NCBI GenBank assembly: GCA_017451915.1
Contig: JAFTNJ010000044.1
Coordinates: 1-44,192, forward strand
Direction of reading: 5' to 3'
DNA: 44,192 nucleotides
Origin: Clostridia bacterium
GTDB taxonomy: Bacteria > Bacillota > Clostridia > Oscillospirales > CAG-272
Within the stretch, counting starts at the first letter, position 1. Each line of letters starts with the position of its first letter. Positions 20,943 to 34,280 of this stretch are shown piece by piece. The notes below the pieces were generated by a model, which was not told the DNA's origin, did no database searches, and saw only the letters and a list, made by a program, of their open reading frames with translations. Position numbers and translations under genes: made by a program.

Positions 20943-21010
20943 TCCGGTGGTTTTTTCCACCCAAAACGGCATTTCTACCGTTTGTAGATAGGCGATCTGC
21001 CTTCCACGTA

Positions 21011-21069: not shown

Positions 21070-21687
21070 ATGGGAAGCTTTGATTTTGGAAACTATATTT
21101 GTGAATTGAGAGAAAAAAAGGGCTGGTCCCAGAGCCAACTGGGGGAGAAGCTGGGGGTAACCAACAAGGCGGTTTCCCGTTGGGAGAACGGCGGCGCGTA
21201 CCCTTCCACCGAGCTGATGCTCCCGCTGGCCGAGGCGTTGGGCGTGACCATTGAGGACCTGTATAAGGCCATCTCGGCGAGCAAGGTGCCCAAAACTCGT
21301 CTGCGCGGCTTTTTGGAGGCGATGACGCGGCACTCCCGACTCATTACGTGGATCTGTTTTGCGCTCATGCTCCTGCCCTACGGGCTGTTCCTGCTCTTTG
21401 GAACCGTAGAGCAAAAATGGACGCTGGTTGCCTCCACCCCCGTGATCTGCGTCATTGCTTACGGCGCATTTTATCCGGCCTTTCGATGGGCTTACAAGAA
21501 CCCCTTTGTTTCGGAGAAGGTGACCGATATTTATACGGTGATTTTCCTGGGGCTGATGCTTTTGGGATATATTTCTACGGTGCAGTATCTGTTTTGGGAT
21601 TTCCCCAACGGGTTCACTGCATCCTCCTGCCTCTGTGCCGCCATTGTTTTGGCTGTGGTGCGGGGGTTGAAGAGAAGATATAAGTGA
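21070..21687 (+). CDS. Membrane-bound XRE-family regulator
   Basis: The N-terminal XRE helix-turn-helix (about 5-62) includes REKKGWSQSQLGEKLGVTNK and AVSRWENGGAYPSTELMLPL. Four hydrophobic segments follow (about 93-116, 120-142, 153-178, 182-199), giving a DNA-binding head tethered to the membrane. Such proteins are common in Clostridia and usually sense an envelope or ion signal; the signal here is unknown. It has its own promoter and terminator, so it is a single-gene unit. GC content matches the host region. Confidence 0.88.
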   Translation: MGSFDFGNYICELREKKGWSQSQLGEKLGVTNKAVSRWENGGAYPSTELMLPLAEALGVTIEDLYKAISASKVPKTRLRGFLEAMTRHSRLITWICFALMLLPYGLFLLFGTVEQKWTLVASTPVICVIAYGAFYPAFRWAYKNPFVSEKVTDIYTVIFLGLMLLGYISTVQYLFWDFPNGFTASSCLCAAIVLAVVRGLKRRYK

Positions 21688-30830: not shown

Positions 30831-30834
30831 GAGA

Positions 30835-30879
30835 AAAAACGGTGCTGTAAGCTTTTGCGGCTTTATGAGCACCGTTTTT
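30835..30879 (-). terminator. Terminator after the XRE-PolC fusion gene
   Basis: 12-bp arms 30835-30846 / 30868-30879, ending in a T run on the minus strand. Confidence 0.75.
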
Positions 30880-30887
30880 GTAATTTA

Positions 30888-32330
30888 TTAGAGATGGCCC
30901 CGGCGGAGCTTGCAAGAAAAGATCTCTTGAAATTCCTTTGGATAGTGTATCTTATACCACATTAGCGTCGCTGCAATCCGGGCGTGGGTGACGCCGTGGG
31001 CCTTGGGAAACAGGTATTTGATCTTTTCAACAGAGTCCGGAAACCATTCCTCCACGCCAAGCAGCTGCAGCTGCTCGCGCAGATCGGCAGGGAGGCCGTT
31101 TTTGGCGTAGATCCCTCGGCGAGTGTCCTCCATGATTTTATAGGAGAGCCCAAGGCCGCTGATCCCCCGAGCGAGGGCGGCCTCCCGCACTCTGCAAAAG
31201 ACGTCGTCCCGATAGGCGATCAGGCGGCCTACGGGAACCCCCTGACGATGCAACTGTGCGGCGTTGTTTTGCCAGGTTCCGCTGCCGTGGGCAAAGCCCA
31301 ACAGCTGGAGCAGATCGTGAAAGCTGCTCGGGCAGGTCGTATGAAGAAGCTGCTTTATAAACTCCGAGCCGAATTCGGGGATCCCTTCCACGTTCCCTTT
31401 TTGAAATTCTGCAAGGATTTCGGGATTGGCAAATCGAACTCGCTCAAAAGAGGTTGCCGTGGCGGCTTCCAGGGCCTCATAGGAGGCAAATGCAGGGTTG
31501 GCGCAAAGAGAAATGGTGCAATCCGAGTGTTGGGAGGACACGGTCCATGAGGTTGCCCGATGGTCTTCCCGTTCGGTTACCGTAGTAACGCAATCCTTAA
31601 AGTAATACTCCAGGAGGGATTTGGCAGTATCAAAAAACTCGGGTGAGAGCGAAATCGCAAAGCTTGGATGTCGTTGCGCCACATGACGGAAGGACTCAAA
31701 GGGAATATCGTGTCCATCCCCCACCGTCATCGTGCCGCACGAACAGCTTTGCGCGGGAAGATCCCAGCCGTCTTTTACGCTGGAATCAAAAAGCACGGCA
31801 TGGCAATTTGGACAGAAGAAATGCGGAGGGAGCGGATTGACGTTTGTGGCCCCCAGCAGATAGGCCACGAGGGACGTGCCCGCCCAGCCGCTTAATCGGA
31901 TCTGCTTGTTGCGTTGTTTCGCTTTTGCCGAAAGGGTTGCAAGCAGATCAAAATAGACGATCAGATCCGTATGCTGCAGCTCGGCTTGTTCGGCAAAAAA
32001 ACGGTCGGAAATCGCAATGGGAACGGGGTCTCCGTAGCGCTCTCGCATGGTGTCGTATGCCTTTTTCCACAGCTGCTTTTTGGTTGCGAAGGGCCCCTTG
32101 GAGCTTTGCTTTTCCACCGAGCGGTATTTGCAGGAAAGAAGCTCGTCCACACTGACGCCTAACGCCTCACCAATTTGGTACAAGATGCCGATCTGGGGCT
32201 TGGAGAGGCCGGTTTCCCATTTGGAAACTGCCTTGTCGGATACCCCCACCAACGCACCCAGCTGATACTGTGTCAAGCCTCTGCGCAAGCGGGCTTCGTG
32301 TAGAAAATCGCCAAAATTACGGTTGGTCAT
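30888..32330 (-). CDS. XRE regulator fused to a degenerate PolC (DNA polymerase III alpha) core
   Basis: Start ATG 32330 follows GAAGGAGG (480 aa). Residues 4-65 are an XRE helix-turn-helix (RRGLTQYQLGALVGVSDKAV, SKWETGLSKPQ). From about residue 86 to the end the sequence follows the PolC catalytic core: RERYGDPVP, NPLPPHFFCPNC, a zinc site (C173, C176, C196, C198), GDGHDIPFESF, GIPEFG, GFAHGSGTWQNNA, YRDDVF, KIMEDTRRG, SVEKIKYLFPKAH. PolC's PHP, exonuclease and OB parts and its C-terminal HhH/clamp-binding tail are absent. The catalytic PDIDLNFSG is SFAISLS here (223-229), and the second Asp region (LKLDILGHDD) is missing. It is therefore very unlikely to polymerise DNA. It probably binds DNA through the HTH and may sense nucleotides, primer-template or replisome proteins. 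Divergent from pepF; not operonic. Confidence 0.88.
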   Translation of the reverse strand: MTNRNFGDFLHEARLRRGLTQYQLGALVGVSDKAVSKWETGLSKPQIGILYQIGEALGVSVDELLSCKYRSVEKQSSKGPFATKKQLWKKAYDTMRERYGDPVPIAISDRFFAEQAELQHTDLIVYFDLLATLSAKAKQRNKQIRLSGWAGTSLVAYLLGATNVNPLPPHFFCPNCHAVLFDSSVKDGWDLPAQSCSCGTMTVGDGHDIPFESFRHVAQRHPSFAISLSPEFFDTAKSLLEYYFKDCVTTVTEREDHRATSWTVSSQHSDCTISLCANPAFASYEALEAATATSFERVRFANPEILAEFQKGNVEGIPEFGSEFIKQLLHTTCPSSFHDLLQLLGFAHGSGTWQNNAAQLHRQGVPVGRLIAYRDDVFCRVREAALARGISGLGLSYKIMEDTRRGIYAKNGLPADLREQLQLLGVEEWFPDSVEKIKYLFPKAHGVTHARIAATLMWYKIHYPKEFQEIFSCKLRRGHL

Positions 32331-32356
32331 ACAATCCTCCTTCGGGGGTTTTCTAT

Positions 32357-32385
32357 ATTGTAGCACGAATCCACCCGTTTGACAA
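32357..32385 (-). promoter_or_regulatory. Promoter of the XRE-PolC gene
   Basis: Minus strand: TTGTCA (32385-32380), 17 bases, TACAAT (32362-32357). It is about 70 bases from the divergent pepF promoter, so the regulator could control both. Confidence 0.75.
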
Positions 32386-32456
32386 GAGACAAGGTCTCTA
32401 CCGTTGGTGGAAAAGGATCGGGGAGATTCCTTCCTCTTCTATTTTTCTTGCGGTAC

Positions 32457-32485: not shown

Positions 32486-32519
32486 GGAGGCACAGTAAAA
32501 ACGAATGGAGGACCGCTTT

Positions 32520-34280
32520 ATGTATAACGAATGGTCATTGGATATTTTGTATCGGGGAGCCGAGGATCCCGCGCTGGAGGCCGATCTTGCCACGCTCGAG
32601 GCTACGGTAGCCGAGTATAAGACGGTGATCGCCTCTCTGGATGCCGGTGACCCCGTGGGCTCCCTGCGCCGCGCCATCGACGTCAAGGAGCGCATGGGTC
32701 TGCTCACCCGCCGCCTGGCCGGCTTCTTCAGCCTGCGCCGCTCCACCAACGCCACCGACCCTCTGGGGGCCAAGTATATGACCAAGATCCAGGCACTCCT
32801 GGCGGGCAACGCCAAGGAGCACGTGCTTTTTGAAAAGTTTGTGGGAGGCATTGAGGATCTGGAGAGCGTGATCGCAAAGGATCCCGTGCTTTCCCAGTAT
32901 GGGTTCTATTTTTCCGAGATCCAGCAGTCGATCTCCCATAATCTGAGCGACGAGGCCGAGGCGGTCTTTGCCAAGCTCAACATCAGCGGCGGCAAGGCGT
33001 GGGGGGATCTCTTCTCCTATCTTACCGCCAACGTGGAGGTGGAATATAAGGGGAAAAAGACGACCCTTTCGGCCATTCGCGGCCAGGCCGAGAGTGACGA
33101 CGCCGAGGAGCGCCGTACGGCCTACGAGGCAGAGTTGGCCTGCTACTCCAAGATCAAGGATTCCATTGCCTTTGCGCTGAACAGCATCAAGGCCCAGGTC
33201 AACACCGAGGCCGAGCTCCGCGGCTACGCCAGCCCCCTGGATATGACCCTGGAGCACTCGCGTATGAAGCGGGAGACCCTGGAGGCTATGCTGGAGGCCA
33301 TGCGGGAGTATCTGCCCAAATTCCATGAGTATCTCCGCCATAAGGCCAAGCTGTTGGGCTATAAAAAGGGGTTGCCTTGGTATGAGCTCTTTGCCCCCAT
33401 GGGCGAGGCGGGAGGCAAGACCTTTACCGTGGAGGAGGCGCACAAGTATCTCGTTGAGCACTTTGAAAGCTTTGCCCCCGATCTGGCGGCCATGGTGGAC
33501 AAGGCCTTCCGGGAGGATTGGATCGATTTCTATCCCCGCGCGGGCAAGGTGGGCGGTGCCTTCTGCTCCAATCTGCCCTTCGTTCAGCAGAGCCGCATTC
33601 TCACCAACTTCTCGGGCAGCTTTGGCTCGGTGGTCACCCTGGCACACGAGCTGGGGCACGCCTACCACGGTCAGCAGATCCAGGATCACCGTCCCCTCAA
33701 TACCGGCTACACCATGCCGGTGGCCGAAACGGCCTCCAACTTTAACGAGCTGATCATCGTCAACGATGCCATTGCCAAGGCGAAGGGCGGCGAAAAGATC
33801 CGCTTGATTGAAAGCCAGATCCAGGATTGCACCCAGATCATTGCCGACATCTATTCCCGCTTCCTGTTTGAGGACGAGGTCATTCGCCGCAGAAAGAACA
33901 CCTTCCTCTTTGCCAAGGAGCTGGAGGAGATCATGCTGAACGCCCAAAAGGAGGCCTACGGCGACGGATTGGATCCCGATCTGCTCCATCCTTATATGTG
34001 GTGCTGCAAGAGCCATTATTACAGCGCGGGGCTCAGCTATTACAACTTCCCCTACGCCTTCGGCGGACTCTTCTCCCGCGGACTTTACGCCAAGTATCTG
34101 GAGGAGGGCGAGGCCTTCCTGCCCAAGTACCGGGCTCTGCTGCAGGCCACCACGGTGGACACGGTGGAGAACGTGGCCGGTATTGCAGGTATTGACCTGA
34201 CCCGGCCCGATTTCTGGCGCACCAGCCTGCAAATGATTGCCGACCGCATCGACGAATTCATTGCCGAAACCGGTAAATAA
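32520..34280 (+). CDS. pepF: Oligoendopeptidase F (M3 metallopeptidase)
   Basis: I take ATG 32520 (MYNEWSL), eight bases after GGAGG; the in-frame ATG at 32505 overlaps that RBS. The 586-aa product is helical, with the M3 zinc motif H376-E377-x2-H380 in LAHELGHAYHG and the third ligand region about 25 residues later (ETASNFNELI). The C-terminal SYYNFPYAFGGLF segment is typical of PepF. It is a cytoplasmic zinc peptidase that trims short peptides. It is monocistronic. Confidence 0.95.
   Translation: MYNEWSLDILYRGAEDPALEADLATLEATVAEYKTVIASLDAGDPVGSLRRAIDVKERMGLLTRRLAGFFSLRRSTNATDPLGAKYMTKIQALLAGNAKEHVLFEKFVGGIEDLESVIAKDPVLSQYGFYFSEIQQSISHNLSDEAEAVFAKLNISGGKAWGDLFSYLTANVEVEYKGKKTTLSAIRGQAESDDAEERRTAYEAELACYSKIKDSIAFALNSIKAQVNTEAELRGYASPLDMTLEHSRMKRETLEAMLEAMREYLPKFHEYLRHKAKLLGYKKGLPWYELFAPMGEAGGKTFTVEEAHKYLVEHFESFAPDLAAMVDKAFREDWIDFYPRAGKVGGAFCSNLPFVQQSRILTNFSGSFGSVVTLAHELGHAYHGQQIQDHRPLNTGYTMPVAETASNFNELIIVNDAIAKAKGGEKIRLIESQIQDCTQIIADIYSRFLFEDEVIRRRKNTFLFAKELEEIMLNAQKEAYGDGLDPDLLHPYMWCCKSHYYSAGLSYYNFPYAFGGLFSRGLYAKYLEEGEAFLPKYRALLQATTVDTVENVAGIAGIDLTRPDFWRTSLQMIADRIDEFIAETGK

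Follow-up and report, generated by a model that had tools for sequence, protein, structure and literature searches.

The window analysed here, a stretch of 44,192 nucleotides from a Clostridia bacterium, carries on its reverse strand a single open frame that joins an XRE-type helix-turn-helix (HTH) to a core derived from the replicative DNA polymerase PolC. The gene has its own promoter elements, a candidate operator and a likely terminator (Table 1). A peptidase M3 gene (32505-34280, forward strand) diverges from it, with the operator located between both genes.

Table 1. Features of the fusion gene and its flanks, in positions of the window
Feature	Position	Strand	Remarks
XRE-PolC-core fusion gene	30888..32330	(-)	480 aa, ATG at 32330, without internal stop
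XRE (HTH_3) DNA-binding domain, residues about 4-65	32136..32321	(-)	Pfam HTH_3
PolC-derived block 1 with Cys4 zinc site, residues about 84-230	31641..32081	(-)	Pfam, structure matches, alignment
Four zinc-site Cys (173, 176, 196, 198)	31737..31814	(-)	Kept in 15/15 fusions
Short stretch in place of the PolC catalytic palm block, residues about 231-281	31488..31640	(-)	Least conserved part
PolC-derived block 2, fingers, residues about 282-471	30918..31487	(-)	Pocket residues H348, Y439, F441, H445
Ribosome-binding site AGGAGG	32336..32341	(-)	By eye; relatives similar
-10 element TACAAT	32357..32362	(-)	By eye; TATAAT in most relatives shown
-35 element TTGTCA, 17-nt spacer to -10	32380..32385	(-)	By eye; geometry same in relatives
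Candidate palindromic operator TCTACC-N3-GGTAGA, one mismatch here	32397..32411	(.)	11 nt upstream of -35
Likely intrinsic terminator, hairpin CGGTGCT...AGCACCG plus T-run	30833..30880	(-)	By eye, unscored

The composite nature of the protein was seen by several kinds of search. Pfam placed HTH_3 at residues 10-64 (E 1.2e-13; 51.3 bits against a cut-off of 23), DNA_pol3_alpha at residues 86-214 (E 6.8e-08) and DNA_pol3_finger at residues 293-362 (E 1.1e-09), the latter two above their gathering scores. The NCBIfam PolC model PRK00448 matched with E 7.4e-66 and 222.6 bits, short of its full-length cut-off of 873, and the top matches among solved structures were the PolC enzymes 3f2b (E 2.3e-51) and 9qpc (E 2.9e-49). 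These results agree with an earlier note on this DNA, which had read an XRE domain followed by residues tracking PolC, with the PHP, exonuclease and OB parts absent; neither these three parts nor the C-terminal part of PolC has a Pfam match in the 480-aa frame, and the C-terminal part is likewise absent in the alignment with PolCs. The HTH stretch VSDKAVSKWE is invariant in 13 of 13 aligned members. Block 1 retains the motifs RYGDP, NPLPPH and GHDIPF together with the Cys4 site, and block 2 retains GIPEFG, GFAHG, YRDD, KIMED and KIKYLFPKAH. Between the blocks about 48 residues replace about 120 of PolC (lengths by eye), the LKLD strand being among those lost. A complete PolC of the same genome is encoded on a separate contig (C10, open frame of 1493 aa).

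The first catalytic motif of PolC, PDIDLNF, is replaced by SFAISLS in the window protein, which retains none of the three catalytic Asp. In an alignment of 15 PolCs and 15 fusions, the first and third Asp are kept in 0/15 fusions and the second in 9/15, so that the loss claimed in the earlier note extends at two positions to every fusion aligned. In the available part of PMC12592400, the E. faecium PolC carrying D972A and D974A had no activity. The comparison of Asp loss and zinc site across homologues, proposed with that note, gave the opposite outcome for the cysteines: all four are present in each of the 15 fusions, with the second pair spaced as CxC instead of CxxC in 14 of them. By analogy with PolC, they would be expected to bind zinc. 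Of the residues invariant in 15 PolCs, the 12 main fusions kept on average 79% within the zinc block and 59% within the fingers. The catalytic block retained 7%, the part ahead of NPLPPH 36%, the short stretch preceding the fingers 29%, and the C-terminal part nothing; the divergent G074, G359 and G429 entered only the per-residue counts. The PolCs of G402, G616 and G575, without the motif used for cutting, stand outside the PolC alignments and the tree. Residues of the nucleobase and inhibitor pocket of E. faecium PolC are also named in PMC12592400, and their counterparts were followed through the fusions: H1185 is kept in 15/15, Y1274 in 13/15, F1276 in 12/15, H1280 in 12/15 and Y1284 in 9/15, while the position of A1281 is Gly in 13 of 15. 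The window protein has H, Y, F and H, then His at the Tyr1284 position. The pocket is not strictly conserved, F1276 and H1280 each being altered in three of the 15 fusions.

The fusion occurs in some gut Clostridia. It was found in 2 of 35 genomes of the genus, and the GTDB family sample of 295 genomes contributed 12, two of them with no more than C-terminal pieces; in the order the count was 8 of 394. The own genome and G055 are common to the family and order samples. The 12 copies of the family scan comprise eight full-length ones, own included, three pieces and one divergent copy (G074); the other genomes listed in that scan read as PolC, PHP-type or HTH-less forms. The piece in G259 is the HTH end of the fusion, and that of G181 ends at a contig end, with the matching promoter on another contig. 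In the class (391) and phylum (398) samples, which contain the own genome and some genomes of the same order, only the own genome matched at E<=1e-45. Of 16 loci obtained by scanning a contig collection, two were true PolC and 14 were fusions, nine of these nearly full length and five partial. Identity to the window protein is 53-59% for the members in an alignment of 13 rows, and 36-37% for the divergent G359 and G074. Viral contigs gave just two weak matches, to one stretch of 26-29 residues, and no phage (22) or plasmid (19) record with a match covers 80% of the fusion protein; none of the 20 phage and plasmid matches listed starts before residue 62, the pattern expected of true PolC.

Nei-Gojobori dN/dS was calculated among eight close members for pairs with dS of 0.05-1.5, that is 22-26 of 28 pairs depending on the region. 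The median was 0.107 in the PolC-like part (23 pairs) and 0.124 in the HTH (24 pairs), and the highest value, 0.207, fell in the stretch between the PolC blocks (26 pairs). By these codon comparisons the fusion family is under purifying selection, not decay. The suggestion that the protein was repurposed rather than decayed was thereby strengthened: dN/dS is about 0.1, the zinc site and fingers are kept across families of the order, and the homologues are neither limited to one strain nor under relaxed selection, one copy, in G293, being a C-terminal remnant. This remnant (L024 1006-1347) lies inside its contig and is 82-85% identical to three intact copies; no trace of the rest of the fusion was found in the approximately 1,000 nt preceding it on the contig.

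In a tree built from 46 rows over 388 columns, a branch supported at 100/100 set the fusions, together with two HTH-less short forms, apart from the remainder, and within this set the fusions alone were grouped with weak support (77/83). Truncated PHP-PolC proteins of G146, G672 and G286 fell between the replicative PolCs and the fusion group, on long branches and in unsure places; the PolC loci L049, L054, L072 and L073 gave no tree row. It appears from these relationships that a PolC duplicate shrank, lost its active site and joined an HTH within this order of Clostridia.

Other shortened PolC relatives were observed in the course of the scans. An HTH-less PolC-like frame of 365 aa (L106 7843-9935, in G220) overlaps the end of an AAA+ ATPase gene, and another HTH-less form (L107 2430-3670, in G233) is split into two frames; by eye, a similar small gene lies near both. 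A PHP-PolC relative of 713 aa (L109 7826-9964) has Met at one catalytic Asp position and Asn at one. Two truncated PHP-PolC paralogues of 800 and 843 aa (L108 7778-12782 and L110 7597-11178) are each followed by a WYL-domain regulator, the two regulators being 60% identical to each other, and in L108 a PD-(D/E)XK-like gene stands between paralogue and regulator. These two loci present another PolC-derived protein beside a regulator. No close orthologue of the L110 form was among the matches listed for 196 genomes, and the other listed matches read as PolC by their identity of 45-48% and, for most, also by frame length.

The neighbours of the fusion vary between loci. All 328 genes called at 30 loci were compared with one another, HTH-less or PHP-type relatives being present at five of these loci and some antisense frames being among the calls. 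No conserved or specific partner gene was found; besides the PolC-like family, only XRE, leucine-rich and ABC-ATPase groups (named by eye) recur, each in 3-4 of the 30 loci. Neither this comparison nor inspection by eye showed defence or prophage genes to be recurrently linked to the fusion in the listed neighbourhoods. PADLOC matches to the fusion are confined to the HTH region, and with no partner gene the fusion does not classify as a toxin-antitoxin or known defence system. In G402 (L100 6021-7875 and 10196-11316), the fusion is flanked by two similar sigma-factor/anti-sigma-like gene pairs, as judged by eye.

Sequence identities of the fusions depart in both directions from those of the resident PolCs. 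Identity among G101, G067 and G020 is 93-96% for the fusions versus 55-64% for the PolCs, and G055 and G101 share 87% in the fusions versus 56% in the PolCs; conversely, G000 and G020, of one genus, share 82% in PolC and 56% in the fusion. Part of the spread is probably vertical, since fusion and PolC identities correlate over all genome pairs (rho 0.73, one PolC row being out of frame); the PolC row of G074, in the wrong frame within the identity table, was left unused. DNA alignments longer than 1400 nt were collected for 24 locus pairs, leaving aside the syntenic pair L101/L102 and all pairs with L013, on whose contig the sequence starts only at -43. In 15 of them the homology opens between -83 and -85, immediately ahead of the operator; in five it reaches farther upstream, to between -117 and -157, and in four it starts closer to the gene. 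Of the 24, 21 end at +1413 to +1458, near the stop codon (+1416) and the hairpin that follows. Terminal inverted repeats were not found at the homology ends in six loci, and the homologous unit does not qualify as an insertion element, because it contains the fusion gene alone without a transposase. A search for the empty site through the neighbouring peptidase gene in 35 genomes matched the own genome alone at E<=1e-200. These comparisons suggest transfer between genera of a single unit made up of promoter, gene and terminator. The genomes are mostly metagenome bins, in which misplaced contigs could mimic some transfer; the fusion of G101 is on a 118-kb contig. The evidence points to a horizontally mobile single-gene unit, which could not be recognised from the one sequence behind the earlier note.

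The conserved upstream boundary coincides with an operator-like palindrome found in 18 of 18 members examined, where it starts 80-91 nt before the ATG and matches at least 9 of 12 positions: 12/12 in 13 members, 11/12 in the window and in G429, 10/12 in one member and 9/12 in two. The shared sequence, TCTACC-N3-GGTAGA, stands about 11 nt ahead of a -35 box. As a control, 283 upstream regions of other genes at the same loci were scored, and 11 reached at least 9/12, four of these being the fusion's own site viewed from the divergent neighbour. The operator is still recognisable at 31-40% protein identity (G359 12/12, G074 9/12). Its centre near -54 is compatible with activation as much as with repression. 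At the other end of the gene, relatives have GC-rich hairpins directly after the stop codon. With the HTH conserved and the palindrome present in every member examined, the DNA-binding part appears intact and equipped with a conserved putative operator.

Exact sites were then counted across 30 genomes, of which 19 carry the fusion and 11 lack it. The total is 21, spread over 17 genomes, two of these being fusion-free. Thirteen are the fusion's own promoter and eight lie elsewhere, five of the latter adjoining other XRE genes, upstream in G000:C6 and G429 and downstream in G616, G575 and G001; the XRE genes of G429, G616, G575 and G001 are homologous along their length and 36-98% identical. At the non-fusion exact sites no recurring non-XRE gene was seen in the 30 genomes, and no ribonucleotide reductase gene was recognised by eye at those inspected. 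Self-control of the fusion seems likelier than a wide regulon, because 13 of 21 exact sites are its own promoter and five of the other eight stand beside XRE genes, and a group of XRE genes may share this operator, with cross-talk among them. The fusion's site carries one mismatch in the own genome, where two exact sites lie elsewhere, one (G000:C6:43514-43528) beside an XRE gene. When one mismatch is allowed, this genome has 7 operator sites, whereas the reversed control pattern occurs 19 times; a single near-match is therefore of little weight by itself. One such palindrome, at 20974-20988 of the window, is upstream of a second XRE gene (21070-21687, forward strand, 205 aa, HTH_3 E 1.9e-16), for which cross-talk with the fusion is possible. 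The palindrome was also seen as the stem of terminator-like hairpins (L157 2577-2591; L158 2143-2157; L142 1501-1515), and the sites of G616, G575 and G067:C9 resemble terminator stems; since such stems carry the palindrome too, an exact match alone is no proof of a binding site. The proposed transcription regulator would, on these counts, act at its own promoter, perhaps in common with other XRE genes, more probably than on a wide regulon.

Taken together, the locus is best explained as a self-contained, self-controlled and horizontally mobile gene, whose protein would mimic part of the replicative polymerase PolC as a sensor or decoy. Drawn from sequence comparison, this reading is tentative and is given a probability of about 0.37. 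The HTH would bind the operator and, probably, repress the fusion's promoter. The PolC module would bind a ligand of PolC, be it the incoming nucleotide, the primer-template, or a PolC-directed inhibitor or protein; contact with nucleotide, template-primer or inhibitor is favoured because the fingers and zinc block are kept, and catalysis is disfavoured because the metal site is lost. Ligand binding would loosen the operator complex, so that the level of the fusion protein rises, and the accumulated protein may then protect replication by serving as a decoy or buffer. The fusion protein itself is probably the effector, since the gene has no partner and no recurring non-XRE target. A bolder version, which we regard as doubtful, sees a mobile self-limiting immunity device, in which the XRE part silences a PolC-core sensor-decoy until a PolC-directed poison, a phage protein or a nucleotide state of replication stress appears; the derepressed fusion would then be made in quantity, soak up the agent and shield the real PolC. 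PolC is a target of antibiotics in development (available part of PMC12592400). If nucleotide, primer or inhibitor state is read by the fusion, it would offer a natural genetic readout of PolC ligands, and the use of a replicative polymerase core for regulation or as a decoy would mark the replisome's central enzyme as a possible source of signalling parts.

A more conventional possibility, on the unlikely side, is a one-component regulator in which the PolC core senses dNTP level or a stalled primer-template and the HTH also controls further genes, such as other XRE genes or the divergent peptidase M3 gene. It would account for the conserved HTH and operator, for the five non-fusion exact sites that adjoin XRE genes and for an operator placed between two divergent genes at this locus, and it has a precedent in NrdR, whose nucleotide-binding module, according to the available part of the literature, is shared with a DNA-precursor enzyme. 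However, most exact sites belong to the fusion's own promoter, no non-XRE gene was seen to recur at the others, the site lies downstream of the XRE gene in three genomes (G616, G575 and G001), and the fusion's neighbours differ between loci. Alternatively, the derepressed dead core could serve as a brake on replication, occupying the primer-template or replisome partners and slowing PolC, in a growth-arrest or anti-phage device that consists of one gene and brings its own repressor domain. Toxin-antitoxin and defence genes move horizontally, and a self-controlled single gene doing likewise, with a dead catalytic block beside retained fingers and zinc block, would fit such a role. The missing C-terminal PolC parts, the restriction of PADLOC matches to the HTH, the absence of recurring defence or prophage linkage in the listed neighbourhoods and the lack of a phage or plasmid record covering 80% of the protein all speak against it, and we hold it to be improbable to much the same degree as the immunity device.

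Two trivial explanations were weighed as well. The large deletion, the lost catalytic residues and the remnant in G293 could be those of a functionless, decaying fragment of a PolC duplicate behind an XRE gene, but the median dN/dS of about 0.1, the spread between genera, and the conservation of the zinc Cys, the operator and a full-length frame across families of the order make this a very improbable account, and it was rejected for the family. An assembly or binning artefact might be suspected where most genomes are metagenome bins; it is contradicted by the recurrence of the same fusion in assemblies made separately for roe deer, sheep, water buffalo and other sources, and by the contig of G055, on which the fusion lies about 6 kb from the match to that genome's own PolC, and it is hardly credible.

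No system of the fusion type was found in the literature searched, a coverage outside which most subscription papers and all bioRxiv preprints fall, and the available parts of two surveys of bacterial polymerases (PMC12926913, PMC3919608) do not mention an XRE-PolC fusion. The PolCs of G. kaustophilus (3f2b) and E. faecium (9qpc) are homologous to the fusion in the zinc block, the fingers and most pocket residues; unlike them, the fusion is without active site, PHP, exonuclease, OB and C-terminal parts, has the shortened stretch between the blocks and carries an added HTH. With the one-component regulators of the XRE/HTH_3 type (RstR-like being a sub-cut-off match) it has in common the HTH and a palindromic operator at its own promoter, but a replicative polymerase core forms its C-terminal part, and the searches gave no precedent for this. 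BirA-type proteins likewise have an enzyme-derived module joined to an HTH; BirA retains catalysis, whereas the fusion core does not. NrdR, described in the available sources as a zinc ribbon and ATP-cone repressor of ribonucleotide reductase genes, is similar in idea, as a regulator whose nucleotide-binding module is shared with an enzyme of DNA synthesis and which often controls its own gene. It differs in its domains, an NrdR-type zinc ribbon or ATP-cone having no Pfam match in the fusion at E<=1, and in its known regulon, to which nothing comparable was found for the fusion. ImuB and other inactivated polymerases are polymerase homologues kept after losing catalysis; ImuB, however, belongs to the Y family, is a partner in a mutagenic translesion complex and, in the available part of PMC12926913, is not described as fused to a regulator. 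In conclusion, an HTH with an enzyme-derived module is a known kind of protein, and a PolC core as that module is unprecedented within the literature searched.
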